A stretch of 64,000 nucleotides of DNA from Desulfatibacillum alkenivorans DSM 16219 (GTDB lineage: Bacteria > Desulfobacterota > Desulfobacteria > Desulfobacterales > Desulfatibacillaceae), in the NCBI RefSeq assembly GCF_900142135.1, contig NZ_FQZU01000015.1:1-64000 (forward strand). Direction: 5' to 3'. Made by a program: the position numbers and the translations under genes. How positions within the stretch are numbered: the first letter of the stretch is position 1; the number at the start of each line of letters is the position of its first letter. Below the pieces are notes generated by a model that worked only from the letters and a program-made list of their open reading frames with translations, was not told where the DNA came from and ran no database searches. Below, one piece after another: positions 5,805 through 56,291 of the stretch.

Positions 5805-5810
5805 AACCAA

Positions 5811-7909: not shown

Positions 7910-7927
7910 ATCCATGGAGGAAAAAGA

Positions 7928-9172
7928 ATGACAAAGGAAATAGTGATTGTCAGCGGCGTCCGCACTCCCGTCGGGCGCTACATGGGCGCGCTCAAGACGA
8001 TTGAGGCTTACGACCTGGCCGCCCTGGTTTTGAACGAAGCCATCAAAAAGGCGGGGATTAAACCGGATCAGGTGGACGAAGTGATCATGGGCCAATCCTA
8101 CCAGAACGGCGAGTACGTGAACATCGCCCGCATGGGGCTGTTGAACGCAGGCTGGCCCGAGGAAATTCCCGGACTCACCATCGACCGCCGTTGCTGCACC
8201 GGCCTGGAAACCATCCGCCTTGCTTCGGCCCTGATTCAAAGCGGGCAGGCCGAGATCATCGTGGCAGGCGGCGTGGAAAGCATGTCCAACGCCGAGTTTT
8301 ATTTGCCGGGAAATATCAAATGGGGCGTGGGCGGCCAAAAGGGCATGCCCCGCGGCCATGGCGATTTAGGCATCTGGGGCATGCCCATGTACGACCGCAT
8401 TCAGCGGGCCAGGGTCATGAGCCAGCCCGAAAGCCGCTACGGCATATTGCCTTCCATGATGTCCTGGGCCGAGACCGGCGCCAAGGAGGAAGGCGTCACC
8501 CGGGAGGAATGCGACGAATGGGCTTTGGGCAGCCATCAAAAGGCCTGCGCCGCCCAGGAGGCGGGCAAGTTTGACGAGGAAATGATCCCCATAACCATTC
8601 CCCAGCGCAAAGGCGATCCCATTGTGGTGGACAAGGACGAAAACCCCAGGCCTGACTCGGCCATTGAAAAGCTGGCCAGGCTCAAGCCGGTTTTGGGCGG
8701 CGTTTGCACGGCGGGCAACTCCTCTACGGAAAACGACGGCGCCGCCGCCGTGGTGGTCATGACCGCCGAAAAAGCCAAGGAACTGGGCCTGGAGGTTCTG
8801 GCTTCGGTCAAGGCCGTGGCCGTGGCCGGCGCAGACCCCACCCGCACTTATCTTACCGTAGGCGCGGCCGCCCGCAAGGCATTGGCTCAGGCCGGGGTCA
8901 GCCTGGACCAGATGGAGCTGATTGAAATCCAGGAGGCCTTTGCGGCCCAGGTTCTGGCTGATCTCAAGGACATGGGCATTGGCAAGGAAGATTACGGCAA
9001 GATCAACGTCAACGGATCGGGAATATCACTGGGCCATCCCATCGCCGCCACCGGCGTGCGCGTGCTGGTTTCCCTGGTGTATGAAATGCGCCGCAGGGAG
9101 GCCAAAATGGCCCTGGAATGCATTTGCGGAGGCGGCGGCCTTGGAATTGCAGCCGTTCTCGAAAGGAAATAA
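7928..9172 (+). CDS. Acetyl-CoA C-acyltransferase (thiolase) 1
   Basis: Protein of 414 residues. Thiolytic cleavage of 3-ketoacyl-CoA, last step of beta-oxidation. The nucleophile loop is DRRCCTGLETI, with C89 aligning with the CSSG cysteine of other thiolases; a second cysteine directly follows it. The base-site motif is GSGISLGHPIAATG and the C-terminal cysteine loop is CICGGGGLGIA. GGAGG precedes the ATG. The stop is directly followed by the start of thiolase 2, so the two are translationally close. The two thiolases are clearly diverged and probably differ in chain length or branching. Confidence 0.92.
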   Translation: MTKEIVIVSGVRTPVGRYMGALKTIEAYDLAALVLNEAIKKAGIKPDQVDEVIMGQSYQNGEYVNIARMGLLNAGWPEEIPGLTIDRRCCTGLETIRLASALIQSGQAEIIVAGGVESMSNAEFYLPGNIKWGVGGQKGMPRGHGDLGIWGMPMYDRIQRARVMSQPESRYGILPSMMSWAETGAKEEGVTREECDEWALGSHQKACAAQEAGKFDEEMIPITIPQRKGDPIVVDKDENPRPDSAIEKLARLKPVLGGVCTAGNSSTENDGAAAVVVMTAEKAKELGLEVLASVKAVAVAGADPTRTYLTVGAAARKALAQAGVSLDQMELIEIQEAFAAQVLADLKDMGIGKEDYGKINVNGSGISLGHPIAATGVRVLVSLVYEMRRREAKMALECICGGGGLGIAAVLERK

Positions 9173-9174
9173 TC

Positions 9175-10365
9175 ATGGCCGGAAAATTATCAGAAGTTGT
9201 CGCGGTGGACGCCGTGCGCACGGCATTCGGCAGGGCGGGGGAAAAGGGCATATTCTGGAACACCAGGGCGGAGGACCTGTGCATCCCCCTGCTGCATGCG
9301 CTTGTGGAACGCAATCCTCCGGCCAAGCCCGAAATGGTGGAAGACATCCTGTGGGGCGTCACCAATCAGATGAAAGAGCAGGGCGGAACCATAGGCCGTA
9401 TGATCTCCATGCTGGCCGGCTGGGGCTGGAACGTCCCCGGCTGCAGCATTGACCGCATGTGCGCCTCCGGGCTCACCGCTCTCGGATTTGCATGCTCCAT
9501 CATCGCCAGCGGCATGGTGGACTGTTTGGTGGCCGGCGGCGTGGAGCACATGGGGCACTTGCCCATGGGATTCATGCGGGATCCCCATCCCAGGGCGGAA
9601 GAGGCCATGGGGGACGCCAGCGCCTTCAATATGGGCCAGACCGCCGAAAACATCCACGACCGGTGGCCCGAGTTCACCAAGGAAATGGCCGACGCCTACG
9701 CCGTGGATTGCCAGGCCAAGGCCGCAAAAGCCATTGAAGCGGGCAAGATGAAAAGCATGATCATCCCCGTGGAAACATTGGACGCCGAAGGCAATAAGGT
9801 GGTCATCGATCGGGATCAGGCGCCGCGGCCCTCCACCACCATGGAAGGCCTGGCCAATCTCAAAACCCCGTTTCGGGAAAACGGACGGGTTACGCCGGGC
9901 AACGCCTCGGGTTTGAACGACGGCGCATCCGCAGTCCTCTTGATGGAAGCGGACAAAGCCTGGGACATGGGCCTGAAGCCGGTCATGCGGTTCGTCGCGT
10001 CCGCCGTGGCCGCCGTGGATCCCCGGGTCATGGGCATTGCGCCTGTGCCTGCTACGCAAAAAGCCTTGCAAAAAGCCGGGCTGACCATGGATGATATCGA
10101 CATCATCGAGATTAACGAAGCCTTTGCCGTTCAGGCCCTGTATTGCCTGAATCGCCTGGGCGTGGAATGGAACGATCCCCGGGTGAATCCCTGGGGCGGG
10201 GCTTTGGCCTTCGGCCATCCCCTGGCGGCTTCCGGCCCTCGCTTGGCGGCCTTTATGGCGGCCCAGTTCCGCGAAAATCCCAAGGCCAGATACGGCCTGT
10301 GCACCATGTGCGTGGGAAGAGGGCAGGGCTATTCCATCATCTGGGAAAACATCGCGCAAAAATAA
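9175..10365 (+). CDS. Acetyl-CoA C-acyltransferase (thiolase) 2
   Basis: Protein of 396 residues from the ATG at 9175, chosen because it gives the standard thiolase N-terminus (EVVAVDAVRTAFGRAG) and follows GAAAGGAAA in the end of the preceding gene. A longer reading from 9118 would overlap thiolase 1 and adds an arginine-rich stretch not seen in thiolases. Nucleophile C96 lies in DRMCASGLTALGFAC, followed by GGALAFGHPLAASG and the C-terminal CTMCVGRGQG. Its role is cleavage of 3-ketoacyl-CoA or the reverse condensation. Confidence 0.92.
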   Translation: MAGKLSEVVAVDAVRTAFGRAGEKGIFWNTRAEDLCIPLLHALVERNPPAKPEMVEDILWGVTNQMKEQGGTIGRMISMLAGWGWNVPGCSIDRMCASGLTALGFACSIIASGMVDCLVAGGVEHMGHLPMGFMRDPHPRAEEAMGDASAFNMGQTAENIHDRWPEFTKEMADAYAVDCQAKAAKAIEAGKMKSMIIPVETLDAEGNKVVIDRDQAPRPSTTMEGLANLKTPFRENGRVTPGNASGLNDGASAVLLMEADKAWDMGLKPVMRFVASAVAAVDPRVMGIAPVPATQKALQKAGLTMDDIDIIEINEAFAVQALYCLNRLGVEWNDPRVNPWGGALAFGHPLAASGPRLAAFMAAQFRENPKARYGLCTMCVGRGQGYSIIWENIAQK

Positions 10366-41499: not shown

Positions 41500-42050
41500 C
41501 GCGCACCTCTCACATAGTGTTCATGCAGGGTCGTTAAGTGGATCGGCTAAAGGACCGCTGCAACGCCGGATAACCATGCCATCGCCCAGGCATCCTCCTC
41601 CCGCAACAGGCATTAACCGGATAACCGCAGGGGCCGGATAGCCAGAATAACGGAAAAGCGCCTTTTCCCTTCATATTGCGGCGTGAAAAGATTGGGCTTT
41701 GTGATCTGTCAGCAACAAATTGGATGTCCCGTGTATACGATCATTAAACACTAGTATTTCATGAATTGCAAGAGGGGAAAAACTGCCTCAAACCGCCGTA
41801 TCCGGGGCTTTTGAAAATCGGGCCTTTAAGACAAAAGAACTCCTTGGTTTTCCTATCCGGGGGGCTTTGGAGCGATCTTTTTTTTCGGCCAGGGCGATTT
41901 TTGGGGGAAAAATTCAACCAAAAATTGCCGCCTCTTTTCATTTAACAATTCTTCTCTGGGTCAAAAGAGTGTGTCAAGGCCTGATGAACGCCATTTTTTA
42001 TTCAAATACTTTCGGTTTCAAATGCATAAAAATAGCATGTTTGTAAAAAA

Positions 42051-42079
42051 TTGACGTAATAAACAAGACAATATATTCT
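42051..42079 (+). promoter_or_regulatory. Sigma-70-type promoter of the acyltransferase operon
   Basis: TTGACG (42051-42056), 17-bp spacer, TATTCT (42074-42079), 90 bp upstream of the start codon at 42168. Confidence 0.5.
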
Positions 42080-42087
42080 TTTATGTG

Positions 42088-42110
42088 CATAAGAAAATCG
42101 GTTTCTTATG
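42088..42110. promoter_or_regulatory. Perfect inverted repeat, candidate operator
   Basis: CATAAGAAA, spacer ATCGG, TTTCTTATG: 9-bp perfect arms starting 9 bp after the -10 element, over the expected transcription start. Its place suggests repression of the downstream gene by a dimeric regulator. Confidence 0.6.
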
Positions 42111-42167
42111 TAGTAATTGTATAATGTTTTGCAATATTTTTCAGGACTTTAGTGAAAGGAGATGCGT

Positions 42168-42581
42168 ATGAAACTGGATTATTTCATTGTGCTCGTGGCG
42201 CCCGACGCCGAGAGCCTGGTGGGCAGGCATCAGTTTTTTCAGGCCATGGTCCAGAGCGGAAGGTTGAACGACATCGTTCGCCTGAGGACCGGCCAGAACA
42301 GCATCCAGGGAAACCTCTCCCTGGCGCGAACCGCGCAGGAGGCGGTGGAAACCATTGACAGAAACTACAAGTATACGGAGGACGCCGTGCAAATTGTATG
42401 CGCAGACTATAGGGTCAATCCCGCTTTGGGGGATTACGGCTCAGACCTAACCGGCCGGAACATTCAAAACGGTCTTGACTTAACGGATTACCTGAGATGG
42501 AACTTCGTGGGAAAAAAAAATGGGCTCTGTGGTTTTCGGCGAGGACGAGGCCCGTTTACCCCTTCAAGCCTTCCGCAATAA
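42168..42581 (+). CDS. Receiver-like domain, N-terminal fragment of a frameshifted acyltransferase gene
   Basis: Reading of 137 codons from the second ATG (42168; AAAGGAG ends 6 nt upstream). Residues 1 to about 117 (MKLDYFIVLVAPDAESLVGR to TDYLRWNFVGKK) are plausible protein; the following ~20 residues (GLCGFRRGRGPFT) are read out of frame. An A9 tract at 42512-42520 marks the switch. With A8 the reading continues without a gap into the frame of the CDS at 42520-43527, and the joined region GLDLTDYLRWNF...FGEDEARLPLQAFRNKGAYD resembles the second half of a response-regulator receiver domain. This is best treated as the first part of a single ~452-residue protein. Confidence 0.7.
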   Translation: MKLDYFIVLVAPDAESLVGRHQFFQAMVQSGRLNDIVRLRTGQNSIQGNLSLARTAQEAVETIDRNYKYTEDAVQIVCADYRVNPALGDYGSDLTGRNIQNGLDLTDYLRWNFVGKKNGLCGFRRGRGPFTPSSLPQ

Positions 42582-43527
42582 GGGCGCATACGACGCCATC
42601 CCGGAACCCCTGAACACGGACATTGTCCTGACTTCCTTTGACCGGCTTTTAGAAGCCATCTTCTCCAAACAAGTTCACGCCAAACAGGAAGTTCAATCGG
42701 TTTTTACGGCCAGGATCATCGATAATTATCAAGACTTCCTCGCCTCATGCCGCCTGAGCTACGGCGTGTACGACCATTTGCATTATCTCAACCAGCACAA
42801 CAGGCTGCGGATCGATCTGGACAAGTTTTCACCCTACAGCATTCCCTTCGGCGTGTTTGAACGAACCGGGTCCGGCGACGTCCTGGTGGGAACCACCCGC
42901 CTCATATTCAGGGAGCGCCAGGAGCCCTTCGCCTCCTACATCGACGCCCTTCTGGATCACGACAATCCGTCCCTGGAGGACCATCCCGGCCTTACCCTGG
43001 CCGATTACGTGCGCCAGCCGTTGCGGGCTTTTTCGCCCATGGCCGAAAGCGTGGATCTAACGCACTTGCTGACCGAGTGGGACGCCGGCGGCGTGCAATA
43101 CGCCGAAAGCAGCCGCAACGTGGTGCATCCCGATTATCGGGGCTTCGGCGTCAGCAGGCTGGTCATGGCTTCGTCCCTGACTTACGCCTGCCGCTCCGGC
43201 CTGGATTTGCTCATCGGCCAGAGCGACGTGAACCACGTGCCCATGTATCAGAAATACGGCGTCACCCCCATTCCCGGCATGTCCCTGTATATGGAGCAAA
43301 CCGTGCGAAACATCACCGCGGCCCTGATTATCGATTTCAGGAAGCCCCTGGCCGGGCCGGCGGAGCATATGATCAAAAAGGTTTACCGCGACAAATGGGA
43401 CAAGGACGGCTTTCTTTGCCTGTGCCCCAACAGGGCGTGCACGGCCAAGGGCGCGTCATACATCGCCAACAAAACCATTGAGTGCCCCATGGAAAATGAC
43501 CAACTCAACGCCGAAGGGAGGAATTAA
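42520..43527 (+). CDS. GNAT/LuxI-like acyltransferase (FeeM-type), C-terminal part of a split gene
   Basis: Reading of 335 residues whose ATG uses the last A of the A9 tract; only a weak G-rich stretch (GTGGGA) precedes it, so independent initiation is doubtful. Residues 1-50 (LPLQAFRNKGAYDAIPEPLN) continue the receiver-like domain. From about 60 on comes an acyltransferase of the GNAT/N-acyl amino acid synthase kind: VGTTRLIFRERQEPFASYI, then the acyl-CoA-binding motif VVHPDYRGFGVSRLVMASS and MYQKYGVTPIPG. Such enzymes make N-acyl amino acids or acyl-homoserine lactones. The C-terminus has several cysteines (CLCPNRAC). It ends 2 bp before the radical SAM gene, so the two form an operon. Confidence 0.7.
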   Translation: MGSVVFGEDEARLPLQAFRNKGAYDAIPEPLNTDIVLTSFDRLLEAIFSKQVHAKQEVQSVFTARIIDNYQDFLASCRLSYGVYDHLHYLNQHNRLRIDLDKFSPYSIPFGVFERTGSGDVLVGTTRLIFRERQEPFASYIDALLDHDNPSLEDHPGLTLADYVRQPLRAFSPMAESVDLTHLLTEWDAGGVQYAESSRNVVHPDYRGFGVSRLVMASSLTYACRSGLDLLIGQSDVNHVPMYQKYGVTPIPGMSLYMEQTVRNITAALIIDFRKPLAGPAEHMIKKVYRDKWDKDGFLCLCPNRACTAKGASYIANKTIECPMENDQLNAEGRN

Positions 43528-43529
43528 CC

Positions 43530-45362
43530 ATGAAGCAAGTAAAAATATACCTGTGGAACTCCATGATGGGGCAAGTGTACTCCGCCAGCGACAGTTTTCT
43601 GGATAACGGCCTGGCGTATTTGCAGGCCGCCTGCGAAGCCAAGGGCATGGACGTGGAACTGGACGATCCGGCCAACATGGATTTTATGACCGGTTTCGTG
43701 CAAAGCGTTCCCGGCGTAAGAAGCCTTTCCGCCAAGCTCTCCCTGCTGGCGCCCAGGGTTTTCCGGCCTAATCCGGATGCCGGCGACATGCAGTCCTGGT
43801 ACGCCTTGCAGGAGGAGGCGAGCCAAATCATTGCCGGAAAAATGGAGGAGTACCTTTTGGATCTGGCCAAAAAAATCCAAAAAGGGCGCTATCACATCCT
43901 GGGGATTAAAACCTGGCTGGGCAAACGCCATATTTACTCCGAGAGGCTGGCGGCTTTGGTTCAGGAGCACGCCCCCGAGACCATCATCATATCCGGCGGT
44001 CCCCAGATGAACCAATTCCAGGAGGATTGCCTGACGGACAATCAGTTTGACCTGGGCGTGTATTCGGAGGGGGAAAAGGCTCTTGTCCGGGTTGCGGAGA
44101 TTGCGGCTGACAAGCGCGCCCAGGGCTGGAAAAAGGGGCAAATCCTTTCCTTCATCGCCTCCCTGGCCGACCGGGACCTGATTCCCAACCTGGTCTACCG
44201 GAAAGACGGGGCGATCCGGAAAACCCGCGCAAAATTCGCCTCCCTGGACGATCTTCCCCTGCCTCTGTATTCCTGCGGGGAAGGCAAGGTGAACGTGGGC
44301 GTGGTCGTGGACGATCTGGGTTGCTATTACAAAAAAGGCTGCGCTTTTTGCGCCCACAAAACAAGCCTGGGCGGCTACCGTCCCCGCAAGATCATCCGGA
44401 CCATGGCTGAAATCGAGCACCTCATCACTCAGGACATCGGCCTTTTCCGATTTTCCAGCTCCGCCACCCCAGCCAACAAAGGCTATAAAATCGCCCTCAA
44501 AGCCCTGTCCCGCGGCGTGAACATGGAGTTTTCCATGTTCACCCGGGGAGAGCACAGCGCGTTAAAGCGCTACCCGGAGCTTGTGCACAAATACCAGGTT
44601 ATGGCCAAGGCCGGATTGCGGGCCGTGTTCCTGGGCGTGGAAGCGGCTAACCAGCGGGTTTTGGACGAAATCGTGGAAAAGGGCAATACCGTGGACGACC
44701 TGTTTTATACGGTCGCCGCCATCAAAGAGGCCTCCATGCTGGAAAAGACTCACGTGGACGTGGGCCTTAGCTTTATCCATCCCGTTCCTCTTCCCAAGGG
44801 CCTGGACGCGGAGGAAATTATGCATGATAACCTGTCGTTTTTGCAAAAACTGGAAGAACGCAACTGCCGCGTGGATTCCGTGCTGGTGACTCCGGCCGGG
44901 CCTTTGCCCGGCGCCCGGTGGTTCGAGGAGCAGGTGCGTTACGGCTTTGCTCTGCCGGAGGACTTTTTGTCCACCTATATGCGGTACAATTTTGAACTGG
45001 GCAAAGATCCTAAAACCTGGCCGGACATCGGCATTAACCTGAACGGACGCTCCTTTAAGGAAATGCTGGAGGAGGCCGGACGTTTTTCCCAGATTCTGGC
45101 GGACAAGGGCTATGCCGTGAATCTTACGGACGAGCATTGCCTGTGCGCCCGGGCCTGCGGCTTTCTCGGACATGAAGGTTTGCTGGAGTTCAAACAAAAA
45201 AGCGATCAGGCCATTTTATGCCTGGATTACGCCTTTTTAAACAAAATGGCCGGGACTATCAACAAGCACAGCCGCCTGATAGCCCGGAAAAACGCCTTTC
45301 ACCCCCTGAACAGGAGGAACGCGGGATTGGAAGCGCAAAAACGTAAAGCCGTCCATGGGTAG
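43530..45362 (+). CDS. Radical SAM protein with B12-binding-like N-terminus and CX5CX2C cluster motif
   Basis: Protein of 610 residues. The N-terminal ~200 residues resemble the cobalamin-binding domain of B12-type radical SAM proteins (HILGIKTWLGKRH, IIISGGPQMNQF, GVYSEGEKALVRV) but no DxHxxG is seen. The iron-sulfur motif is C265-YYKKG-C271-AF-C274, with five residues between the first two cysteines instead of three. The barrel continues with ITQDIGLFRFSSSATPANKG and AVFLGVEAANQRVLDEIVEKG. The final ~150 residues include a second cysteine group (HCLCARACGF) that could bind an extra cluster. GGAGG precedes the ATG; it is co-transcribed with the acyltransferase. Substrate unknown. Confidence 0.78.
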   Translation: MKQVKIYLWNSMMGQVYSASDSFLDNGLAYLQAACEAKGMDVELDDPANMDFMTGFVQSVPGVRSLSAKLSLLAPRVFRPNPDAGDMQSWYALQEEASQIIAGKMEEYLLDLAKKIQKGRYHILGIKTWLGKRHIYSERLAALVQEHAPETIIISGGPQMNQFQEDCLTDNQFDLGVYSEGEKALVRVAEIAADKRAQGWKKGQILSFIASLADRDLIPNLVYRKDGAIRKTRAKFASLDDLPLPLYSCGEGKVNVGVVVDDLGCYYKKGCAFCAHKTSLGGYRPRKIIRTMAEIEHLITQDIGLFRFSSSATPANKGYKIALKALSRGVNMEFSMFTRGEHSALKRYPELVHKYQVMAKAGLRAVFLGVEAANQRVLDEIVEKGNTVDDLFYTVAAIKEASMLEKTHVDVGLSFIHPVPLPKGLDAEEIMHDNLSFLQKLEERNCRVDSVLVTPAGPLPGARWFEEQVRYGFALPEDFLSTYMRYNFELGKDPKTWPDIGINLNGRSFKEMLEEAGRFSQILADKGYAVNLTDEHCLCARACGFLGHEGLLEFKQKSDQAILCLDYAFLNKMAGTINKHSRLIARKNAFHPLNRRNAGLEAQKRKAVHG

Positions 45363-45393
45363 CAACGCCAAGTTGCTGTGAAACAAGTCCGTA

Positions 45394-45430
45394 ATGACGC
45401 TGGGTCCCCGTTTCCGGGACCCGGCGTCAT
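45394..45430. terminator. Strong hairpin between convergent genes, related to the 11619 repeat
   Basis: ATGACGC-T-GGGTCCC, loop CGTTTCC, GGGACCC-G-GCGTCAT: a 15-bp stem with one mismatch, between the radical SAM gene and the hybrid kinase gene. It contains GACGCTGGGTCCCCG, the same sequence that bounds the element at 11619-11860, so a dispersed repeat is serving as, or sits at, a terminator position. No long T tract follows. Confidence 0.65.
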
Positions 45431-45432
45431 CC

Positions 45433-47781
45433 TCAAATTTTGCCGTCCAGCACTTTGCGGATTTTACTTAGGAAATCGTTGACGGAAAACGGCTTCTGGA
45501 TGTACCGGACTCCCCGGTCCAGTACGCCGTGATGGGCGATGACATTGGATGTGTAGCCTGACATAAACAAGTGCTTCAGGCCGGGCCGGATTTCCTCCAG
45601 CCTGCTTTTCATGGCGCTGCCGTTCATTTCCGGCATGACCACGTCGGTGATCACAAGATCCAGAGGACCGTCCCATTGGCGAACTATTTCCAAAGCTTCG
45701 TGGGGAGTGCTTGAGGCGAGAACCTGGTATCCGTTGCGTTTCAAAATTGCCGTGCACATGTTCAAAATGGCCTTTTCATCCTCAACCACCAAAATGGTTT
45801 CGGTTCCCGGAGCAGGGGCGGGCGATGCTTTGCGGAGGGCGGTTTCGTTTTTTAAAGACCGGGGCAGATAAATCCGGAAAACAGTCCCCTGGCCCGGCTC
45901 GCTCTCCACTTTGATGAAACCTTTGTTCTGACGCACAATGCCGTACACGGTGGCAAGGCCCAATCCGGTGCCTTCCCCCACGCCTTTGGTGGTGAAAAAG
46001 GGTTCGAAAATCATGTGCATGGTTTCTTCATCCATGCCTTTTCCGTTGTCTCCGACTTCCAGCACCACGTAGTCGCCGGGGGTGAAATCCGCACTCTCCT
46101 GGCTTTTCCTATTGTTTAAAGAGGCGTTGTATGTGGCGATTGTCATGCGCCCCACGCCTTGGATGGCGTCTTTGACGTTTACGGCCAGATTGGCCAGGAT
46201 TTGATCCACCTGGCTGGGATCCATCTCAACGGGCCAAACGTCCGGGCTTGGGCTCCAATTCAACGCGATGTTTTCTCCGATGAGCCTGCGGAGCATCTTG
46301 AGCATGGAGTCGACGGAATCATTGAGATTCATGACAATGGGCCTGGCGATCTGTTTGCGGGCGAAGCCGAGCAATTGCCGGGTCAGGTTGGCGGAGCGCT
46401 TGGCGGCATCCAGGATTTCGGTAAGGTCCTCCCGGATTTTCGCATCCATGGCCGTGGCATCCAGAGCCATTTCCGCGTGCCCTACGATGACCCCCAGCAT
46501 ATTATTGAAGTCATGGGCCACCCCGCCCGCCAGACGCCCTACGGATTCCATTTTTTGAGCTTGGAGCAACTGCCTTTGAAGCCGCTGCTTCTCCTCCTCC
46601 GCCCTTTGACGCTGCGTGATGTCCAGGTTGACCACCACGGCGGCTTCCACCTCTCCCTTGTGGTCCAGAACCGGAGCGGTGTAGTTGAGGATCACCCTTT
46701 TTTCTCCGTCAAAGGCTTCGATCTCCAAAATTTCATCCAGTATTGTGACGCCCTCGTTCACCGTCTTGGCCAGAGCCCAGTCTTCGGGGCCGACTTCTTC
46801 ACCGGATGGCAGCTTCCGGGCTTTAAACACGCCGTATTCCTCCTGGCCCACCTTAGGCTCTCCTCCCCATATTTTTTGGCCCATGGGGTTGCCCCGGAGC
46901 AATCGCCCCTTTTTGTCGGCGAACCAGAGGCCCACGGGGAGAATGTCAAAAACCCGGCTCATGAGGTTTTCCCTCCGCCGCAACTCCTGCTCCATGATTT
47001 TCCGGTCTGTAATGTCGTTGGTGTAACCCAAAAAACGGGTCTCGGACAGCTTGGTTGCGAACACGGACCACCACCGGACTTCTCCGTCCTTTCGGATTAA
47101 GGGAAGCTCCCCATATGCCTTGCCGTTTTTGACTAATTGCTGAAAATGAGCCTTGCCCTCCTCGTGGCTTTCCGGCGGAACAAGGCTGAGGATGCTCATG
47201 GAAAGCAGCTCCTCCTCGCTGTACCCGGTCTGCCGGCGCGCCTCGCTGTTTACCTCCAGGTATTCCCCGTGCTCATTGGTCACGAACACCCCGTAGGGGG
47301 CGTGTGATATGTAATCATGATACTTCTGCTCGCTGGAGCGCAGGTCGATTTCCGCCTGCTTGCGGGAGGTGATGTCCTGAAAGGTTCCCCGCACTTTTCG
47401 GGGGACGCCTTCTTCAAAGACGGCCTCGCCCGTCAACCGGCACCATATTTCTCGGTTGCTCCACGTTTTTCGGTTGACCTCCAGGTCAAAGGGCTTCCCT
47501 GTTTCCAGGCATTCGGCAATAGCCGATTCCAAAGCCAGGCGGCCATCCTCAGAGTAATAGTGCATGTGCTCCAGAGGCGAGACGGGCTCCGTACCGTCGA
47601 ATTCCAGGATGTCGTAAAGAGATCGGGTCCATGCCGCCTTTCCCGTTTCCAGATCAAACTCCCAGCCTCCGATTTTCGCCATGCGGCCTGTTTCATCCAA
47701 AATATCTGCGCTGCTGGACAACTGCCTCCGGAGCTTGATCACGGTTTTTTCAAGATCTTCATAGCTGGGTTTGGCTTGCAT
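45433..47781 (-). CDS. Hybrid histidine kinase with three PAS domains and C-terminal receiver
   Basis: Protein of 782 residues with no membrane segment, so cytoplasmic. PAS domains at about 30-145, 150-265 and 275-400; the joining [12 protein letters not shown] and [12 protein letters not shown] are PAC ends. The H-box is [16 protein letters not shown], the N-box [16 protein letters not shown], then [29 protein letters not shown]. The receiver begins [14 protein letters not shown], with the phosphorylatable aspartate in [13 protein letters not shown] and the lysine in YIQKPFS. H-box and N-box are of the HisKA_4-like type common in deltaproteobacteria. No separate DNA-binding partner is adjacent; signal unknown. 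Confidence 0.92.
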
Positions 47782-47977
47782 GCATAACCTCTGTGATGAA
47801 CAAATGCAGCGGGTCCACGCCCTTATAAATCAAGGGCATCATGGATTTTTTGCGGGTTAAATGTACGTGTAACGGGAAAATTACTTGGCCGCGAATAACG
47901 AATTGATAATAGACCACAAAGCCCATTTAGCGCAAGAAAATTAGGCCGCAATCCAGGAGGCGCGGCCAGGGGGGATG

Positions 47978-49588
47978 CTACTTGTCTTTCCAGACCGCGG
48001 CCAGGTCTATGCGAAAAACTCCTGACATGGAGTGAATCCACAACCGGTCCCGGGAGTCCAACTGCATGCCGTGGGGCCTGCCTCCCACCCGGATTTCCCA
48101 GAGCCGTTTTCCGCTTTCCAGGTCAATGGCGAAAACCTTGCCCGAACAATACCCCAGGACGTAGATGACATTGCGCTTCGGGTCCAGGCTAAGATACCTG
48201 GCGTGGCGTTCGCCTTCATACACCCTTTCGATGGCGAAATCCCTCACACGCACCTTGGTCAGGCCGTCCCATACATTGGACTGGCAATATAAGGCGTCCT
48301 CCTCCGGGGTGAGGGCCATGGAGGTCAGGGAAAACAAGTCCCATTGTTGGGTGCGCAGGATTTTCAAGGAGTCCGGGTCGATTTCCGAAATGTCCCTTCC
48401 CTGCCAGGTGGCGACCACCATGTATAACAGCCGGGTTTCCCTGGACTGGGAAATGCACCAGGCCCAGCCCCCCTCGCCCAGGGTTCCGGGCTCGTACAGC
48501 GGCATGACCTTTACCTGCCGGTTGGCCTCCAGGTCCACCACCGCTATGCTGGGATACATGGACGTGGCGATGTACAGGGCCTTTCCGTTCACGTCCAAAG
48601 CCATGTCCATAGGCTCCCACAGCATGGGGGGGACGTAGCCTCCCACCGGGATGGACCGGACGATGGACAGGTCTTTCTTGGAGATTTCGTAAAGATGGTT
48701 GTCGTGCCAGGGCGCCACAAACATGCCGTCCCTGGTCATCTCCACCCGGCGCACGTTGTGCTCCGTCAGCAAATAGGAGATTTCTCCGGTGTCCAGGTCC
48801 TTTTTTACGATGGCGGGAATAGTGGTGCTTCCGTAGGCGTAATAGGTCCCTCCGTAAAAGGCGAATAAGGCGTTCAACTTTTCATCGAAAAACACCTCCC
48901 GCACCTTGTTGGAGGCTCTAATCTCGCCGCGGGTTTTGAATCCCGTCCCCGGGGGGGTCAGGTAGGCGAGGTTGTCCGGGTAATCCCTAAGCAAAGCCTG
49001 GGCGACTTCCCCCACGTCCATGATTTTGACCACGCCCGCCTGGGATAGGATTGTTTCGTCCGAGGCTGCTCCGGCGCCCCCGATTTTCCATTGCACGATA
49101 AAAATTATCGTTGTAATGGCCAAGGGCAGAAACACCGCGCAAATCATCCTGAATCTTCCCGCCCGGACCGCCAGCAGGTAATATATGACTATCCAATAAG
49201 CCAGCGCAACCCAGGCCCATCCCATAACGGAGCGCCACATCAGGAAATTGTTGACCAGAAAAAAACTCCAGTAAATTTTAAACCCCGGAGTCGCCTGGAG
49301 CTTGATCAAAATATAGACCACAAAGATCCCGTAAAACATGGCCCACATGACTACGTTGCACAGCCAGTAATAAAAACGCCTTCGGCCGGAAGGGGCCGAG
49401 CCTTGGGATCGGGGATGCAGGTCTGTAAATGTTTTGGTCGCCCGCCATTCAAAGAGCATTACGGGAGTAAACAGGAGCACCACTGCGGACAGGCTGGTTA
49501 CGGTTTCGGTGCAGCACAGGATCAGGACGCCGTGCATATACAGAAAAACCGCCCAGGCCGTCCAAATCGGAAAAAACCAACGGTTCAT
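47978..49588 (-). CDS. Integral membrane protein with C-terminal beta-propeller
   Basis: Protein of 536 residues from the ATG at 49588, which has GAGGCG 5 nt upstream; an ATG at 49633 is possible but has a poor site. Roughly the first 185 residues hold about six membrane segments (AWAVFLYMHGVLILCC, SAVVLLFTPVMLFEW, YYWLCNVVMWAMFYGIFVVY and others). The rest resembles a YVTN/NHL-like propeller (MALDVNGKALYIATSMYPS, MALTPEEDALYCQSNVWDG, SLDPKRNVIYVLGYCSGKV). No quinoprotein or enzyme motif was recognised. It ends the four-gene radical SAM operon, so it may bind or move the product of these enzymes (inference). Confidence 0.75.
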   Translation of the reverse strand: MNRWFFPIWTAWAVFLYMHGVLILCCTETVTSLSAVVLLFTPVMLFEWRATKTFTDLHPRSQGSAPSGRRRFYYWLCNVVMWAMFYGIFVVYILIKLQATPGFKIYWSFFLVNNFLMWRSVMGWAWVALAYWIVIYYLLAVRAGRFRMICAVFLPLAITTIIFIVQWKIGGAGAASDETILSQAGVVKIMDVGEVAQALLRDYPDNLAYLTPPGTGFKTRGEIRASNKVREVFFDEKLNALFAFYGGTYYAYGSTTIPAIVKKDLDTGEISYLLTEHNVRRVEMTRDGMFVAPWHDNHLYEISKKDLSIVRSIPVGGYVPPMLWEPMDMALDVNGKALYIATSMYPSIAVVDLEANRQVKVMPLYEPGTLGEGGWAWCISQSRETRLLYMVVATWQGRDISEIDPDSLKILRTQQWDLFSLTSMALTPEEDALYCQSNVWDGLTKVRVRDFAIERVYEGERHARYLSLDPKRNVIYVLGYCSGKVFAIDLESGKRLWEIRVGGRPHGMQLDSRDRLWIHSMSGVFRIDLAAVWKDK

Positions 49589-49651
49589 GAATACGCCTCG
49601 TGCGTAGGCAGCTAATGTTCCGCCCTTGTCCATTTACGTCCCAATCATCCT

Positions 49652-51142
49652 TTAGATTTTTTGCCCGGCGCCTTGCCCGAAACGCGCTGCGGCCGCCCCC
49701 CAAACCTGTTTGGCCAGGCTTTTGAGCTTATGCAGAAAAAGATAATCCAAAAAACGGAAAAGAGTTCCTGAAATTCGGCCTCCGTTTTTGGAGACATGCC
49801 GGTATATGGCCCACAACCGCCTTGGACTGCATAAAAACAGAAGATAGGCCAGGGATTGATACATCCGTAATTCCGTTGCGCCTACATGGGCCAAGCTGTC
49901 CTTGACGTTAAAATATAAAGAGCTTCCCGCTTTCGGGCCGCCGGGTGTCTTGCTGCAATATTCCCGGGCCAGTTCCGTCCCTTCCTGAGGAATCACGATG
50001 AAAAAAAAAGCGCCATGCATCGGACTTCTCCACGCCCAGAACAGGGTTTTCAGGATTTCACGCCGGGTCTCCGTGGGAAAGCCCAACATAAAAAATCCCC
50101 AGCAAAAAATCCCCAGCTCCGAAGCAATCGCCGCGTTTTCCTCCAGTTTTTCCAGGTTGATATTTTTTTTGGCCAGTTTTTGAATGCGCGGCGATGCGGA
50201 CTCTACGGCTATATCGATGTGGTAGGTCCCCACCGAAGCCAGGGCCTCCAAAACCTCCCGGTCCAAAATGTCCGACCGGAGCCCGTTGGGAAAAGTGAAA
50301 GCCGTTTTCAGCCCCCGCCTTTTGATCTCACTGCAAATTTTCAGAACGCGCTTTTTGTTCAGGTTAAATACATCATCAATTATTTCAAATTCATGAATTC
50401 CAAAATCCGTTATCAGCCGCTCAATTTCGTCCACCACCTGTAAGGCGTCCATAGGCCTGAATTTTTTTGAAAAGATGTCATGGCAGTATATGCAGTGATA
50501 CGGGCATCCCCGGGACGTCATTATGTACGCGTAGGGCTCTTTCGTGCTCATGGGGGTCATTCGGGGCTGATGCTGGTATTCCATGAGATCAATCAGATCA
50601 TAGGCGGGGAACGGCATGCTTTTGATGTCAATCAGATCTTTGTTTTTAGGCCGGCAAACCGTTTTACCGTCCGGGTCTGAAAAGGCCAGGCCGCTGATTT
50701 CCCTGCCGGGATGGGAGAGCCCCTGTTCGAACATTTCCAAAAGGCTTACAAACGCCTTTTCCCCTTCTCCCATGACCAGATAGTCCGCGGGAATGTGCTT
50801 TATCAGGTCAGGGCCCGCGGATGATGCAAGGGGGCCGCCCAGGACGACGGGAATATTCGGGAAGTTCTTTTTCAGGAAAGGAATCAGCGCGTCAACCCGG
50901 CCGGCGTCGGCGCTCATGGCGCTGACGCCGATGCAATCCGGCCTCAGCTCCTCAATATAGGCAATCCACTCCTTTTGGGTTTTTGGATGAATCCGTTCAT
51001 CCAGGATAGTGAACTGATCCTTTCCCGGACGCACTTTGTTTGCATAGGCGGCCAGGCACAACAATCCCAGGGGAGGGGCGACGGAGTCTCCGGTTTCCAG
51101 AACCGCCTTTCTCATGGCTTTAATCAATAAAACGCGGGACAT
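49652..51142 (-). CDS. B12-binding-type radical SAM protein (paralogue 1)
   Basis: Protein of 496 residues. The N-terminal domain (APPLGLLCLAAYANKVRPGK, VVLGGPLASSAGPDLI, YLVMGEGEKAFVSLL) is of the cobalamin-binding type but lacks DxHxxG. The [4Fe-4S] cysteines are C213, C217 and C220 in RGCPYHCIYCHD. The barrel follows (FEIIDDVFNLNKKRVLKI, IDIAVESASPRIQKLAKKNI, WGFFMLGFPTETRRE). The C-terminal ~100 residues are hydrophobic and basic, as expected for a membrane-facing enzyme. It aligns without gaps over its first 220 residues with the protein at 52228. Likely class-B radical methylase or related C-C-forming enzyme; substrate unknown. Confidence 0.87.
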   Translation of the reverse strand: MSRVLLIKAMRKAVLETGDSVAPPLGLLCLAAYANKVRPGKDQFTILDERIHPKTQKEWIAYIEELRPDCIGVSAMSADAGRVDALIPFLKKNFPNIPVVLGGPLASSAGPDLIKHIPADYLVMGEGEKAFVSLLEMFEQGLSHPGREISGLAFSDPDGKTVCRPKNKDLIDIKSMPFPAYDLIDLMEYQHQPRMTPMSTKEPYAYIMTSRGCPYHCIYCHDIFSKKFRPMDALQVVDEIERLITDFGIHEFEIIDDVFNLNKKRVLKICSEIKRRGLKTAFTFPNGLRSDILDREVLEALASVGTYHIDIAVESASPRIQKLAKKNINLEKLEENAAIASELGIFCWGFFMLGFPTETRREILKTLFWAWRSPMHGAFFFIVIPQEGTELAREYCSKTPGGPKAGSSLYFNVKDSLAHVGATELRMYQSLAYLLFLCSPRRLWAIYRHVSKNGGRISGTLFRFLDYLFLHKLKSLAKQVWGAAAARFGQGAGQKI

Positions 51143-51172
51143 GCAATACCCCTCTTTGTTGCATTGGGACTC

Positions 51173-52222
51173 TCAAGGCCTGTTAACCGGGCAGTCGTGA
51201 AATCGCCGGTAGCTTCGGGTGAGATCGGACCGCCACATTCTCAGGACTATATCGGACAACGGCTCGTTTGTCACGGCGCCGAACTTTTCCTCCATGTAGC
51301 AGCAGGGCTGCACGTCGCCGAAGGCCGTCACGTGAAACATGAGCCTGTCCAGGGCCGCGCACGAAAACACCGCTTTTGGATGGTTAATCCAGTCCGACTC
51401 CCAATAGACCCTGCCGGGCTTTAGCAGCTTGCGCATTTGAGCGATTTCGTCCCGGGAAAGCACCACGCGTGTTTTTCCCTCCCAGCCTCCGCACATGATG
51501 GAAGTGAGCATGCGCACCCGGGCGCCCAGGCCGCCCGCCAGGTCCAGGATGGCCTGCAAATCTCCATTGTCCAGATTTTTCTTGGTTGCCACCGCAGACA
51601 CATCGCAGCGAATGCCGTTTTCCAGGCATAGCCTGACGCCCTGCACTGCTCGGGCGTGAAGCCCTTCCACCCCGCGAAAGGCGTCATGGAGCCTGGGCCG
51701 GGCGTGGTCCAGGCTCACCCTGACGTGATCCGTCCCAAGGGCCGCCAGGCTTTTCACCCTGTCCGAATCCAGCAGATACCCGTTGGTGTCCAGGCTCACC
51801 CGCATGCCAAGGCCTTTGGCCGTTCTGACGAAATCGTCCAGGTTGGGGTGCAGCAGGGGCTCCCCTCCGAACAGGTACAGGTTCGCGGTCCCGGCTTTGC
51901 TGCATTGTTTTATGAGGTCGATGATCTGGCCCCTGGAAAGTTCCGGCCGGTTTTTTTGCTGATTGGTTCGGGATCCGCAATGGGGGCACTGGCACTGGCA
52001 TTGATAGGTCAGGGAAATCATGGCCGTGGCCCCGAACAAAGGCGCGGACATCATCCTCATGGAGGGCATGAGCGCGTCTTTGTACGCAGCCAGAATCAAT
52101 CGGGACAGGGGATCGTCGAACCGGGAAAATCGTTCGGCCAGCCTGCTCCGGGCCTTGTTCAGGCCCTGAGAAGCGCCTGCTCGCAAGCCGGCCCGGACCG
52201 ATGAAGTCTTTTCCTTTCCCAT
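51173..52222 (-). CDS. Radical SAM/SPASM-type protein
   Basis: Protein of 349 residues. The SAM cluster motif is C75-QCQ-C79-PH-C82 within LTYQCQCQCPHCGS, with an additional cysteine at 77. The glycine-rich motif is LYLFGGEPLLHPN, followed by VSLDTNGYLL. The C-terminal SPASM-like region has cysteines in FSCAALD, GDVQPCCYMEEKFG and FHDCPVN. The family includes peptide-maturing enzymes, but no precursor peptide gene is seen next to it. The N-terminal ~60 residues are basic and helical. It starts 5 bp after the upstream paralogue ends and lies 30 bp before the next, so it is translated from the same transcript. Confidence 0.87.
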   Translation of the reverse strand: MGKEKTSSVRAGLRAGASQGLNKARSRLAERFSRFDDPLSRLILAAYKDALMPSMRMMSAPLFGATAMISLTYQCQCQCPHCGSRTNQQKNRPELSRGQIIDLIKQCSKAGTANLYLFGGEPLLHPNLDDFVRTAKGLGMRVSLDTNGYLLDSDRVKSLAALGTDHVRVSLDHARPRLHDAFRGVEGLHARAVQGVRLCLENGIRCDVSAVATKKNLDNGDLQAILDLAGGLGARVRMLTSIMCGGWEGKTRVVLSRDEIAQMRKLLKPGRVYWESDWINHPKAVFSCAALDRLMFHVTAFGDVQPCCYMEEKFGAVTNEPLSDIVLRMWRSDLTRSYRRFHDCPVNRP

Positions 52223-52227
52223 AATCC

Positions 52228-53712
52228 CTACGCAGTCCTGGGGGTGATGCGGAATTTAAAAACCTTTCGGGCCTTGGTTTTTAGCGTATAAAAGACTTTA
52301 TCCACCGCAATGTAACGTACAAGGCCCAAAGCCAGGGAAACCAAACGGCGGAACGGCGCCACTCCGCTGGTGTATATCAAATACACCCGCCAGGGGTTGA
52401 AAAAAAAGAGGAAAAAAGCCAGGGAATGCATGATGGCCAGTTCCCGCGGGCCTACAGCGCCTAACGCGCCTTCCGGCGAAAAATAATCCCACAGGCGTTT
52501 TTCCCCATCGCTTTCGATGGCCTCTTCATATTTTTGGGCCAGCTCCGTGCCTTCAAAGGGAACCACCGGAAAAAAATACGCCCCGTGCAGTTTGGAGGAG
52601 GCCGCAAACCAGATGGTTTTCCACAACTCCCGCCGGCTTTCCTGGGGCAGCCCCATCATGAGAAAGCCCCAGGTGAAAATTTTCAGGTCCGCGGCGATGG
52701 AGATGTTCTCGCGGATTTTTTTCAGGTTGATGTTCTTTCGTAAAACCTTCTGGATGCGGGGCGACGCCGTCTCGATGGCGAAAGCCATGTGCACGGTCCC
52801 CATGTCCTTCAATGCTTCCAGTGTTTCCCGGTCCAAAATGTCGCCCCGAACTCCGTTGGGAAAGGTGAAGCAGGTTTCCAGCCCCCGTTTTTTGATCTCC
52901 GCACTAATGTCTTTGACCCGTTGTTTGTCCAGGTTGAAAATGTCGTCGTAAACCTCGAACTCATGCACTCCGTACGCGTTGATCATGTGCTCGATTTCGT
53001 CCACCACCCGCATGGCGCTCATGGCCCGGAACTTTCCTGAAAATATGTCGTGGCAGTATATGCAATGATACGGGCAGCCCCGGGACGTGAACAAAGGCGC
53101 ATATAACTGGGAGGTGCGCACGGGCGTCATGCGGTCCCGGCCCACGTAATCCTGCAGGTTGATGAGGTCGTAGGCCGGATAGGGCAGGGCGTCCAGGTCG
53201 GCCCGGTTTTTGGAAGGGGGATTGTCGATGATGCTTCCCGAATCGTCCCGAAAAGCCAGCCCGGCAATCCGATCCAGGGGATAATCCTCGTTCCCGTCCA
53301 GGGCCTCCAGCAAGCCCGTAAAGGGGATTTCCCCCTCGCCCTTGACCACAAAATCAATGTTTGCCTCGTCCAGAAGCCCGGCCCCGGAGGACGACGCCAA
53401 AGGCCCGCCTATGACGATTTTCGCCTGCGGCAAGGCGCGTTTGAAAACCGGCAGCAAATAATCCACCTGATCCTGCTCGATGGACATGCTGCTGAAGCCG
53501 ATGACGTCCGGCCGGAGGTCTTTCAGATAAGCCTCCCACTCCCTGGAAGTCTTGGCGTAAACCCGCTCGTCGACAATGGTGAAAACGTCCTTGCCGGGGC
53601 GCTTATCCCTTGCGTAAGCCGCCAGATACAAGACTCCCAAAGGCGGAGAAACAGCCAAAAAATGGTCCGTATACTCCCGTTTTCGATTTTTTATGAGCAG
53701 GATATTCGCCAT
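52228..53712 (-). CDS. B12-binding-type radical SAM protein (paralogue 2)
   Basis: Protein of 494 residues from the ATG at 53712. This start was chosen because it makes the N-terminus (MANILLIKNRK) align exactly with that of the paralogue at 49652 and puts the cluster cysteines at the same positions (C213, C217, C220 in RGCPYHCIYCHD). An ATG at 53730 is also possible. No DxHxxG. FEVYDDIFNLDKQRVKDISA and AFAIETASPRIQKVLRKNI match the paralogue. C-terminal region hydrophobic then basic. First gene of the four-gene operon; two diverged copies suggest two successive or parallel modifications. Confidence 0.87.
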   Translation of the reverse strand: MANILLIKNRKREYTDHFLAVSPPLGVLYLAAYARDKRPGKDVFTIVDERVYAKTSREWEAYLKDLRPDVIGFSSMSIEQDQVDYLLPVFKRALPQAKIVIGGPLASSSGAGLLDEANIDFVVKGEGEIPFTGLLEALDGNEDYPLDRIAGLAFRDDSGSIIDNPPSKNRADLDALPYPAYDLINLQDYVGRDRMTPVRTSQLYAPLFTSRGCPYHCIYCHDIFSGKFRAMSAMRVVDEIEHMINAYGVHEFEVYDDIFNLDKQRVKDISAEIKKRGLETCFTFPNGVRGDILDRETLEALKDMGTVHMAFAIETASPRIQKVLRKNINLKKIRENISIAADLKIFTWGFLMMGLPQESRRELWKTIWFAASSKLHGAYFFPVVPFEGTELAQKYEEAIESDGEKRLWDYFSPEGALGAVGPRELAIMHSLAFFLFFFNPWRVYLIYTSGVAPFRRLVSLALGLVRYIAVDKVFYTLKTKARKVFKFRITPRTA

Positions 53713-54451
53713 ACAACTCACACGCCCCATGATCGGGGCGCGCCTCCCTTTTCATCAGGCTGCGGGGCGGACGTCTCGGAAAAATGCAGGGGCGGCGGGG
53801 CGTAAAAATCCTCCCGGCGTGCGCAAACAAAAATGCGGCCGCAATTCCCATGCTGTTTTCGTTGCATAATCCCCCCCCTCAGGAGTCATTTACACCGTCG
53901 ATTTCATATCCCTAATACCATTCCTGGCGCGTCAATTAAAGGCTAAAAAAACTTCCGGCCAACGGCGCAGCTGAATAAATATATAATTGCAAGACGATAC
54001 AACCACACAACTGCAGACCGAGCGCCTTCGGCGGCTAACTACATACCTTCAAAACTGCATAACAGCACGCCTCCGGCGGCAAACTTTTAAAAAAGTTTGA
54101 TCAAAACTTTAAAATGGCGCTTCGCGCAAGAGCGCAGACAGGTTTGCCATTCCCGAGCGTCCCTGTCGGGAATCCAGCGCCCCGGCACTTGTCTTGTGAA
54201 AAACAACGCGTCGCGCCTAATATTGTCGATACAGGGAACCTATGCTACTATAAATTCTCAGCCGTGAATGAAATGTTTCCCCGGTTTCTCTTGCGGGAAC
54301 CGGATTTCCGACCCCGTACTCGTATTGCAGCAAACATGGCGAATTATTGCCAGGCTCTTTGACATTTCGAGAACAATCTAAAAACCAGGGTCACGCCCAA
54401 AAATGCAATTTTAAAGATAACTATTCAATATTGATTGGGATTGATTGCCTG
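53713..54451. other. Gene-free region upstream of the radical SAM operon
   Basis: About 740 bp without a credible gene. It must hold the promoter of the radical SAM operon; none was recognised with confidence. A repeat containing ATTCCCGAGCGTCCCTGTCG lies at about 54149-54175 and recurs in altered form at about 57490-57517. The right end marks the break where the Rhs reading frame begins. Confidence 0.5.
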
Positions 54452-54494
54452 ATCCCAGAACGGCGGGAACTACGAATACGCACCCCATGGGCGC

Positions 54495-56291
54495 GTGAAA
54501 AAATGGGAAATCAGCCAGTCCCGCTCGAAGATCCTGTTTCAATACGGATATGGCTACGACGCCCTCGGCAGGAGAACCAGCGTCACAAACAGCGGGACAG
54601 CGTTTGACGAGCCTGCGTTTAATATCTACGGGTATAACTCAAGGAACGAGCTTAGAGCCTCTAACCACTACCTTGGGACCAGCATCCTTGATACAGCCAG
54701 TCCAGTTGATGATGAGGAAAGGGCTTATAACTACGACCCAATAGGCAACCGCATCAATGCACAGCAGGATTACGACATCAGCGCCAGTGCGCCCATTACG
54801 TCCACTTATGTGACCAACAGCCTGAACCAATACGAATCTGTGACATCTGGCGGGGAGAGCATCTCTTTAGACTACGACGATGACGGCAACCTCATCCACA
54901 AGGACGGCGTACAGTACGTCTTCAATTGCGAGAACAGGCTGGTGGAAGTATCGCCCCTGGCTCCCGTGATAGGAGACACCAAGGTTGCCTTCGCCTACGA
55001 TTACATGGGCCGCAGGTATTTGAAGCAGAGCTACGTCTACTCAGCAGGGGAGTGGTCCCTTGTGTCCACCTCGACCTCCATTTGGGAAGGCTGGAACCGC
55101 ATCCAAGAGAAAGTCGTGTTGGCCGCTGATTCTTCCAATGAAGAAGTGACATCCTATGTGTGGGGCCTCGATCTATCCCAATCTTTGCAGGGCGCAGGAG
55201 GAGTGGGCGGTTTGCTTGCCGTGGTGGATGCTGACTCTGACGTGGACTTCTACCTCTACGACGCCAATGGCAACGTGGGGCAATTGATAAGTGCAACTGA
55301 CGGTACGCTCCATGCCACATATGAATATGGCCCCTTTGGACGCCTCTTGAAGTCCACTGGTTCTAAAGCCAATGAGAACCCCTACCGCTTCTCCACCAAG
55401 CCCATGGACGCTGAGACGGGCCTCTATTATTACGGTTACAGGTATCTTGACGTCGATCTTGGCAGGTGGGTCAGTCGTGATCCTATTGGGGAACGTGGGG
55501 GGTGGAACCTGTATGGGTTTGTGGGGAATATCCCCATCGGTCTCGTTGATTTCCTGGGAAACAAATACTATCCAAATTCTAGCTCTACTAGTACCTATGA
55601 CATAGACTATGGTGGGCCAACATATGGCCCGGAACCAAGTCCGGGGGGAGAAATTGGCGATATTATCGATTCCATAAAGGGGCAGAGCAGAAATCTTGCA
55701 GATTGGGCATATGACCAGATTAAGGATTTAGGTTCTTCTGTTGGAGACATGCTTACTTGGACTGAAACCTATGATAGTAATAGCAATCCAGTTCCTGCTG
55801 TTTATGATACAAACAGCATCCTGAGTCATGATACAGGTTGGGCAGATGCAGAGAACTATGATAAAGCCATGTTTGCCGCATTTAAAGGTCTTGTGGGATT
55901 TTTAGCGACTTATAAAGCTGGCATTGAGGTAGCCGTTGTCGGCGCATTGGTCTCAGGGGCAGCTAGTGATTTTTTTGTAAAACAATTCCGTATTACAGGA
56001 AAATCAATGATTAGAAGGGAATGGTATGGTAGTATTACGTATAGACTGAGCACTGAGGGAATTGAGCAGTTTTATGACTATCATTCAAGTGGTCCGGATG
56101 AAAGAGTAGTTATAGAGTTATATGTGTATGAACGATTTAAGTGCGGCTCTAAAGTAATAGCAGAGAAAGAGCCATATTTATGGCCAGGATTTATAGAAGT
56201 AAATAAGTTTTTGCAAAATTTAAGGGATCCTTTCTATGAAAAGGATATTACAACGTTCTATCCATTTGGCGCGGATACTCTCACTTATTAA
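54495..56291 (+). CDS. Orphan Rhs/YD-repeat C-terminal module with variable toxin-like tip (5'-truncated)
   Basis: Reading of 598 residues from a GTG; the frame stays open upstream only to the TGA ending at 54451, and the upstream codons (QNGGNYEYAPHGRVK) are typical Rhs sequence, so the long N-terminal part of an Rhs protein is missing. YD repeats (YGYDALGRRTSVTNSG, YDYMGRRYLKQ) lead to the Rhs core end RFSTKPMDAETGLYYYGYRY and DPIGERGGWNLYGFVGNIPI. From about residue 356 the sequence is unrelated, the DNA becomes AT-rich, and a hydrophobic stretch occurs (LVGFLATYKAGIEVAVVGAL). In Rhs systems this variable end is a toxin. No known toxin motif was recognised. The gene may be silent unless recombined with a full-length rhs. 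Confidence 0.8.
   Translation: MKKWEISQSRSKILFQYGYGYDALGRRTSVTNSGTAFDEPAFNIYGYNSRNELRASNHYLGTSILDTASPVDDEERAYNYDPIGNRINAQQDYDISASAPITSTYVTNSLNQYESVTSGGESISLDYDDDGNLIHKDGVQYVFNCENRLVEVSPLAPVIGDTKVAFAYDYMGRRYLKQSYVYSAGEWSLVSTSTSIWEGWNRIQEKVVLAADSSNEEVTSYVWGLDLSQSLQGAGGVGGLLAVVDADSDVDFYLYDANGNVGQLISATDGTLHATYEYGPFGRLLKSTGSKANENPYRFSTKPMDAETGLYYYGYRYLDVDLGRWVSRDPIGERGGWNLYGFVGNIPIGLVDFLGNKYYPNSSSTSTYDIDYGGPTYGPEPSPGGEIGDIIDSIKGQSRNLADWAYDQIKDLGSSVGDMLTWTETYDSNSNPVPAVYDTNSILSHDTGWADAENYDKAMFAAFKGLVGFLATYKAGIEVAVVGALVSGAASDFFVKQFRITGKSMIRREWYGSITYRLSTEGIEQFYDYHSSGPDERVVIELYVYERFKCGSKVIAEKEPYLWPGFIEVNKFLQNLRDPFYEKDITTFYPFGADTLTY

Follow-up and report, generated by a model that had tools for sequence, protein, structure and literature searches.

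Cobalamin-dependent radical S-adenosylmethionine (SAM) enzymes, among them MgmA, CysS, OxsB, TsrM and TokK, carry a B12-binding domain followed by a Radical_SAM domain with a CX3CX2C cluster motif. B12-type radical SAM enzymes perform carbon chemistry that is open to few other catalysts, and to our knowledge most of them have no known substrate. Here we describe a locus of four genes, A to D, from Desulfatibacillum alkenivorans DSM 16219, in which two enzymes with this domain order and motif (A and C) are encoded together with a third radical SAM enzyme (B), broadly of the PqqE/GeoRSP/heme b synthase type, and a membrane protein (D) whose soluble domain shares the fold of the propellers YncE and BtuG. 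The stretch analyzed, referred to below as the window, comprises 64,000 nucleotides (contig NZ_FQZU01000015.1, positions 1 to 64,000), and all four genes lie on its minus strand:

A, 52228-53730, minus strand: B12-binding-domain radical SAM enzyme; likely start 53712 (Met-7, 494 amino acids)
B, 51173-52222, minus strand: radical SAM enzyme with a short SPASM-like C-terminal region
C, 49652-51142, minus strand: B12-binding-domain radical SAM enzyme, paralogue of A
D, 47978-49633, minus strand: N-terminal membrane helices and a YncE-like propeller; alternative start 49588

We propose, with a probability of about 0.4, that A, B and C modify a hydrophobic, membrane-bound lipid or lipid-linked molecule, with D as their membrane partner.

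Linkage of D with B12-type radical SAM genes

Twelve genomes, D. alkenivorans included, were found to carry a D orthologue: seven of the nine genomes of its family, four more in the order, and one further record (L022). None was found in G003 (83% complete) and G008, which belong to the same family. In all 12 loci, BLAST (E ≤ 1e-4) detects an A or C homologue no farther than 2.03 kb from D, and the number of such homologues per locus ranges from one to five. The linkage between D and B12-type radical SAM genes is well supported. The rough chance of an A-like gene within ~2 kb is 2% per locus, a figure that uses the density of one genome (25 A-like matches in 6.47 Mb) and ignores gene clustering. 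The homologue is on the D strand in six loci (G000, which is D. alkenivorans, G001, G002, G405, G428, and G527), and in four of these the longest open reading frame (ORF) calls overlap D; overlapping same-strand neighbors of D occur in three families of the order. Among 10 D-neighbor proteins from other loci scanned against Pfam, eight have both the B12-binding and the Radical_SAM domain, while Radical_SAM alone is present in one truncated by its contig end (L026) and in the B-like protein of L051.

A contig scan of the genomes with D alone confirmed no relative, and a scan with alignment A1 gave eight loci; since this alignment supplied a single short pattern, more remote members of the D family may have escaped it. 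Twelve genomes from the phylum and order searches with only weak propeller-region matches were dropped from the D count (G064, G340, G364, G305, G082, G574, G544, G533, G493, G255, G325, and G043). The corresponding stretches, L061-L072, some of them as short as 4-6 kb, hold one A/C BLAST homologue, in L062, ~3 kb from the propeller gene. The matched ORFs of 8 of these 12 loci were scored for hydrophobic segments and had 0 to 3 each; the D orthologues scored had 5 to 6, and the D-like proteins described below 3 to 7. These ranges touch, and in L063 the three segments are spread over 1298 residues.

The full A-B-C-D set was found only in two Desulfatibacillum genomes. The second, G001, carries it in the same order on a 22,620-base contig, with identities of 78% for A, 81% for B, 64% for C, and 67% for D. 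That a second Desulfatibacillum genome repeats this order, with orthologues 64-81% identical, makes the operon more than a chance arrangement. Across 194 genomes of the order, with up to 7 candidates per genome scored for the A type and up to 10 for B, we found B (E ≤ 1e-40) in two genomes and the A type (E ≤ 1e-90) in four. All four genomes with the A type also carry a D orthologue, compared with nine of 194 overall (hypergeometric 2e-6, a value inflated by kinship, as three of the four genomes are of one family); the nine are full or near full-length matches, and five weak matches to the propeller region were left out. In one of the four, G405, the A-type gene sits on a different contig from D and adjoins a distant B-like protein (26.7% identical to that of the C40 cluster described below). 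An initial annotation of this DNA had looked to co-occurrence of the four families across Desulfobacterota, and this expectation fails. The conserved gene set around the propeller protein stands as D with one to five A/C homologues and falls as a set of four families. By these sequence comparisons, the four-family system reduces to the gene set of one genus, with a wider core of D beside B12-type radical SAM enzymes.

ORF calls confirmed the four co-directional minus-strand genes given in the initial annotation. Its gaps of 5 bp (A-B) and 30 bp (B-C) hold, and its third, of 63 bp, applies only if D starts at Met-16; from the first ATG of D the C-D gap is 18 bp. By eye, a plausible ribosome-binding stretch precedes both D starts. 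The Met-7 form of A (494 amino acids, start 53712) has the length of the A orthologue in L021. We infer that A to D are co-transcribed. Promoter and terminator scans showed no clear excess over shuffles (5 vs 4.1 and 7 vs 10.8), so the ends of the transcript are not set by them.

The proteins and their closest relatives

In A and C, PF02310 (B12-binding) is followed by PF04055 (Radical_SAM), both above the Pfam cut-off, and the two proteins are 49-51% identical. The CX3CX2C cluster motif lies at Cys 213/217/220 in both (494-residue numbering for A); these exact positions, and radical SAM cysteine motifs in three of the four genes, agree with the initial annotation. The basic C-termini it described were likewise borne out, with 13 Lys/Arg among the 75 C-terminal residues of A and 12 among those of C, against 2 Asp/Glu in each.

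Neither protein reached an NCBIfam cut-off among the families listed (22 for A, 24 for C). The B12-radical SAM families compared were ApyD, BchE, HpnJ, HpnR, TIGR04072, KedN5, Sden_1168, and TIGR04014. The best profile was that of ApyD, an enzyme of ribosomally synthesized and post-translationally modified peptides (RiPPs), at 139.8 bits for A and 129.1 for C against a cut-off of 750. The lipid families HpnJ, HpnR, and TIGR04072 are distant profile matches of A (120.9, 83.5, and 83.3 bits) whose cut-offs (577.6, 650, and 360) it misses, and A scores 77.4 against the MgmA family TIGR04014 (cut-off 360).

The AlphaFold model of A (predicted local distance difference test score, pLDDT, 83.8) gave its highest fold match to the 1,2-diol dehydratase AprD4 (Z 31.2, root-mean-square deviation (rmsd) 2.9, 407 residues aligned), followed by MgmA (29.9), CysS (29.1), OxsB (28.6), and TsrM (27.8), where rows within 1 Z unit of each other count as ties. 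Ranked by Foldseek E-value, MgmA comes first. MgmA, CysS, OxsB, TsrM, and TokK resemble A in overall fold (Z 22 to 30) at just 16-20% identity. AprD4 is also the best PDB sequence match of A (E 1.6e-14), yet it is 21% identical and its NCBIfam profile scores 65.5 against a cut-off of 500. Judging from the B12-binding domain, A and C likely use cobalamin, with AprD4 and the cobalamin enzymes scoring alike for the model of A.

In a tree of 17 proteins, the A proteins of both Desulfatibacillum species group together (100/100), as do the C proteins (100/100). A groups with C (99/97), and the pair joins a single relative from another contig of the D. alkenivorans genome (98/97). The relatives that neighbor D in L024 and L027 make up a separate group (100/100), in which three of four members come from L024. 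By these groupings, the A/C duplication predates the split of the two Desulfatibacillum species, and enzymes of this type expanded independently in another lineage; placement is unsure for the long branches (two of L022, one of L026).

For B, PF04055 scores above the cut-off and the SPASM family PF13186 marginally so (22.0 vs 21.5 bits). Its CX3CX2C motif lies at residues 75/79/82, and its tail has cysteines at 288, 307, 308, and 344. Profiles and PDB sequence matches place B broadly with PqqE, GeoRSP, and heme b synthase, although it scores 101-110 bits against cut-offs of 381-500 and its tail is short and SPASM-like. Among the best 25 of 60 NCBIfam families, no SPASM cut-off was reached (best 110.1 bits vs 400). 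The best sequence matches of known structure are cytosylglucuronate decarboxylase and PqqE. The archaeal tetraether synthase Tes (7tol) is a far poorer match, ninth of 10 rows at E 2e-4.

D matched no Pfam family at E ≤ 0.001 and reached no NCBIfam cut-off, scoring 25.5 bits against TIGR03866 (YncE-like propeller; cut-off 287.3). Its AlphaFold model (pLDDT 84.8, predicted template modeling score (pTM) 0.83, 9 sequences) has six helices of about membrane length up to residue 184 and then 28 strands, which would make seven blades of four. Structure prediction thus upholds the earlier description of D as membrane segments joined to a propeller. In the fold comparison the top rank goes to YncE (7seu_D, Z 30.3, rmsd 2.6, 297 aligned), which also comes first in the sequence profile search (E 6.6e-5); BtuG3 (8okv) is at rank 25. 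D differs from YncE and BtuG in its N-terminal membrane domain and its B12-type radical SAM neighbors, and identities are 14-17%. The membrane part has no fold match in the list, which propeller matches fill, so this part was hardly tested.

Hydropathy analysis gave five clearly hydrophobic stretches in the N-terminal part of D. Basic residues cluster ahead of helix 1 and in two loops, one following helix 2 and one preceding the final helix. Five spans combined with this placement of basic loops would put the propeller outside, in the periplasm, and six spans would put it inside; from the hydrophobic segments and the basic loops, the propeller is probably periplasmic.

Proposed function and alternatives

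In the proposed scheme, A, C, and B would act in succession on unactivated carbons of a lipid or lipid-linked substrate, by alkylation or some other modification. These reactions would take place on the cytoplasmic side, to which A and C may attach through their basic C-termini, and D, anchored by its N-terminal helices and with its propeller probably in the periplasm, would bind the product or hand it on. Here we infer the class of substrate, the sidedness of D, and the division of labor.

The choice of a lipid or lipid-linked substrate is suggested, indirectly, by clusters that encode D-like proteins. These proteins occur in the C40 cluster of D. alkenivorans and its counterpart in G001 C90 (two in G001), in G019 C111 among eight A and C homologues, and, in G405 and G548, next to D as additional genes. 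Profile comparison with D gave E 2.8e-12 for the C40 pair, 5.1e-13 for G019, 1.4e-6 for G405, and 9e-5 for the G405 and G548 pair, the last with a probability of just 59.5; the matches span all or part of the propeller. Besides several A/C homologues and a B-like radical SAM gene, the C40 cluster encodes a UbiA-type prenyltransferase (98.1 bits), and near it lies an ArnC-like glycosyltransferase (95.4 bits, under the cut-off of 529).

Two candidate products were set aside. Hopanoids are unlikely, since PF13243 (squalene-hopene cyclase) was not found in the D. alkenivorans genome, which is rated 100% complete; the control was positive in 2 of 14 genomes. As for ether lipids, a known enzyme, Ger, accounts for the ether bonds in D. 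alkenivorans. Ger from this species is reported to form ether bonds in Escherichia coli, and the species, for which no genetic tools exist, makes unusual ether cardiolipins (PMC11150832); a second report places homologues of Mss and Ger in metagenome-assembled genomes of Desulfobacterota (PMC11868695). With respect to the dedicated pathway on a membrane molecule put forward in the initial annotation, hopanoids are thus an unlikely substrate, and a lipid as such is neither shown nor excluded.

Several observations weigh against a lipid pathway with D as partner. The operon itself holds no lipid-biosynthesis gene, the lipid theme coming from the D-like clusters. AprD4, the best fold match of A by Z, is not known to use cobalamin, which leaves cobalamin use by A unproven. 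Unrelated WD40 propellers follow YncE in the fold list for D at Z 28 to 29, nearly as good a match, and with six helices in the model against five hydrophobic segments the sidedness of D could flip. The nearest A/C homologue lies on the strand opposite D in six of the 12 loci. Outside the genus, the D loci yielded no B orthologue and nothing closer than a distant B-like protein (27.9% identity to B), in the D cluster of G405.

The constant presence of B12-type radical SAM genes beside D (12 of 12 loci) could also mean that D itself is the substrate, with A, B, and C modifying carbons of its residues as MgmA does on methyl-coenzyme M reductase. For A, the protein-modifying MgmA tops the Foldseek E-value ranking and is second by Z, peptides are frequent targets of SPASM enzymes, and the majority of the invariant columns of D fall within the propeller, many of them in the last 80 residues. 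However, a varying number of A/C homologues per locus and the lack of B orthologues outside the genus would be odd for a fixed target, and if the propeller is periplasmic the enzymes must act before export; we regard this role for D as improbable. About equally improbable is that there is no joint pathway, and that duplicated radical SAM genes lie near an unrelated membrane protein engaged, for example, in sensing with the downstream kinase. The restriction of the full set to two genomes, the variable gene content around D, and the opposite strands in half of the loci would all fit this explanation, but the overlapping same-strand neighbors in three families and the linkage in every locus argue against it.

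The same linkage, in which homologues of B12-type enzymes adjoin D in 12 of 12 loci, would be expected if D were a corrinoid-binding propeller on the inner membrane that concentrates B12 for its neighbors, like a membrane-anchored BtuG. BtuG is a seven-bladed propeller, and the binding face of BtuG2 is negative (PMC10404256). The structure at rank 25 for the D model is BtuG3 with cyanocobalamin (8okv), and the BtuG entries 8bmx and 8bmy appeared in the profile search at E about 0.06, which is not significant. Propeller similarity is generic, however, and the propeller of D, with 37 basic and 41 acidic residues, is close to neutral, in contrast to the BtuG2 face. CobS is present in the genome, and neither a cobalamin riboswitch nor any other structured RNA matched Rfam at gathering score in 42000-55000. 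BtuG-like cobalamin capture by D is possible, without specific support, and we consider it quite unlikely. Similarly long odds apply to a secondary-metabolite or RiPP pathway in which A and C are C-methyltransferases and B a maturase. ApyD is the best NCBIfam profile of both A and C, yet its cut-off is far above their scores. No similar ORF of at least 20 amino acids is shared between the gaps that flank the Desulfatibacillum operons of the two genomes, in line with the initial annotation, which saw no precursor peptide gene; precursors were not sought farther away or in the other D loci.

Returning to the lipid pathway with D as membrane partner, a wider proposal can be made only tentatively: D may represent an undescribed family of membrane-anchored YncE-like propellers, dedicated to a class of Desulfobacterales B12-radical-SAM pathways that make an unseen lipid or lipid-linked compound. 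The initial annotation did not recognize the gene set as a described system, and we found no description of it in the literature searched, with subscription papers mostly outside reach; the core of D beside B12-type radical SAM enzymes is apparently undescribed as well. A membrane-anchored family that recurs beside B12-type radical SAM enzymes would provide a handle on a whole pathway class and its substrate, and, if the proposal is true, a new membrane compound in Desulfatibacillum could be checked by lipidomics.

Neighboring genes

Two further genes adjoin the operon on its downstream side:

E, 45433-47781, minus strand: PAS/histidine-kinase/receiver protein (Pfam), 196 bp downstream of D; order kept in G001
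F, 43530-45362, plus strand: B12-type radical SAM protein with CX5CX2C (C265, C271, C274); kept in G001

In G001, E follows D on the same strand (70% identity) and is succeeded on the opposite strand by F and an acetyltransferase-like gene, G, named by eye. Whether E belongs to the operon is uncertain, and membership of F is doubtful. F was found at E ≤ 1e-40 in two of the 194 genomes of the order. Elsewhere in the phylum, six homologues of F have CX4CX2C (three of them from one genus) and two remote ones have CX3CX2C, the usual spacing, which makes a graded series of motif spacings within one family. On the other side, the operon adjoins an RHS-repeat-like protein (54495-56291, plus strand), labeled by eye from its translation.

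Other observations concern the D and D-like loci and the genome at large. In the C40 cluster, a B12-type radical SAM gene (C40 73986-75269; L059 5888-7399, minus strand) has one in-frame TGA shortly 5' of its cysteine motif and would be either a broken gene or one with a recoded codon. In L017 (G007; 5653-9644) and L060 (G019; 6211-10252), a D or D-like gene adjoins a large protein that matches Spermine_synth, under the Pfam cut-off in the former and above it in the latter; the junctions are an overlap of 4 bases and a gap of 4 bases, respectively. The 6.47-Mb genome of D. alkenivorans is rich in B12-type radical SAM genes, with 25 matches to A at E ≤ 1e-3.

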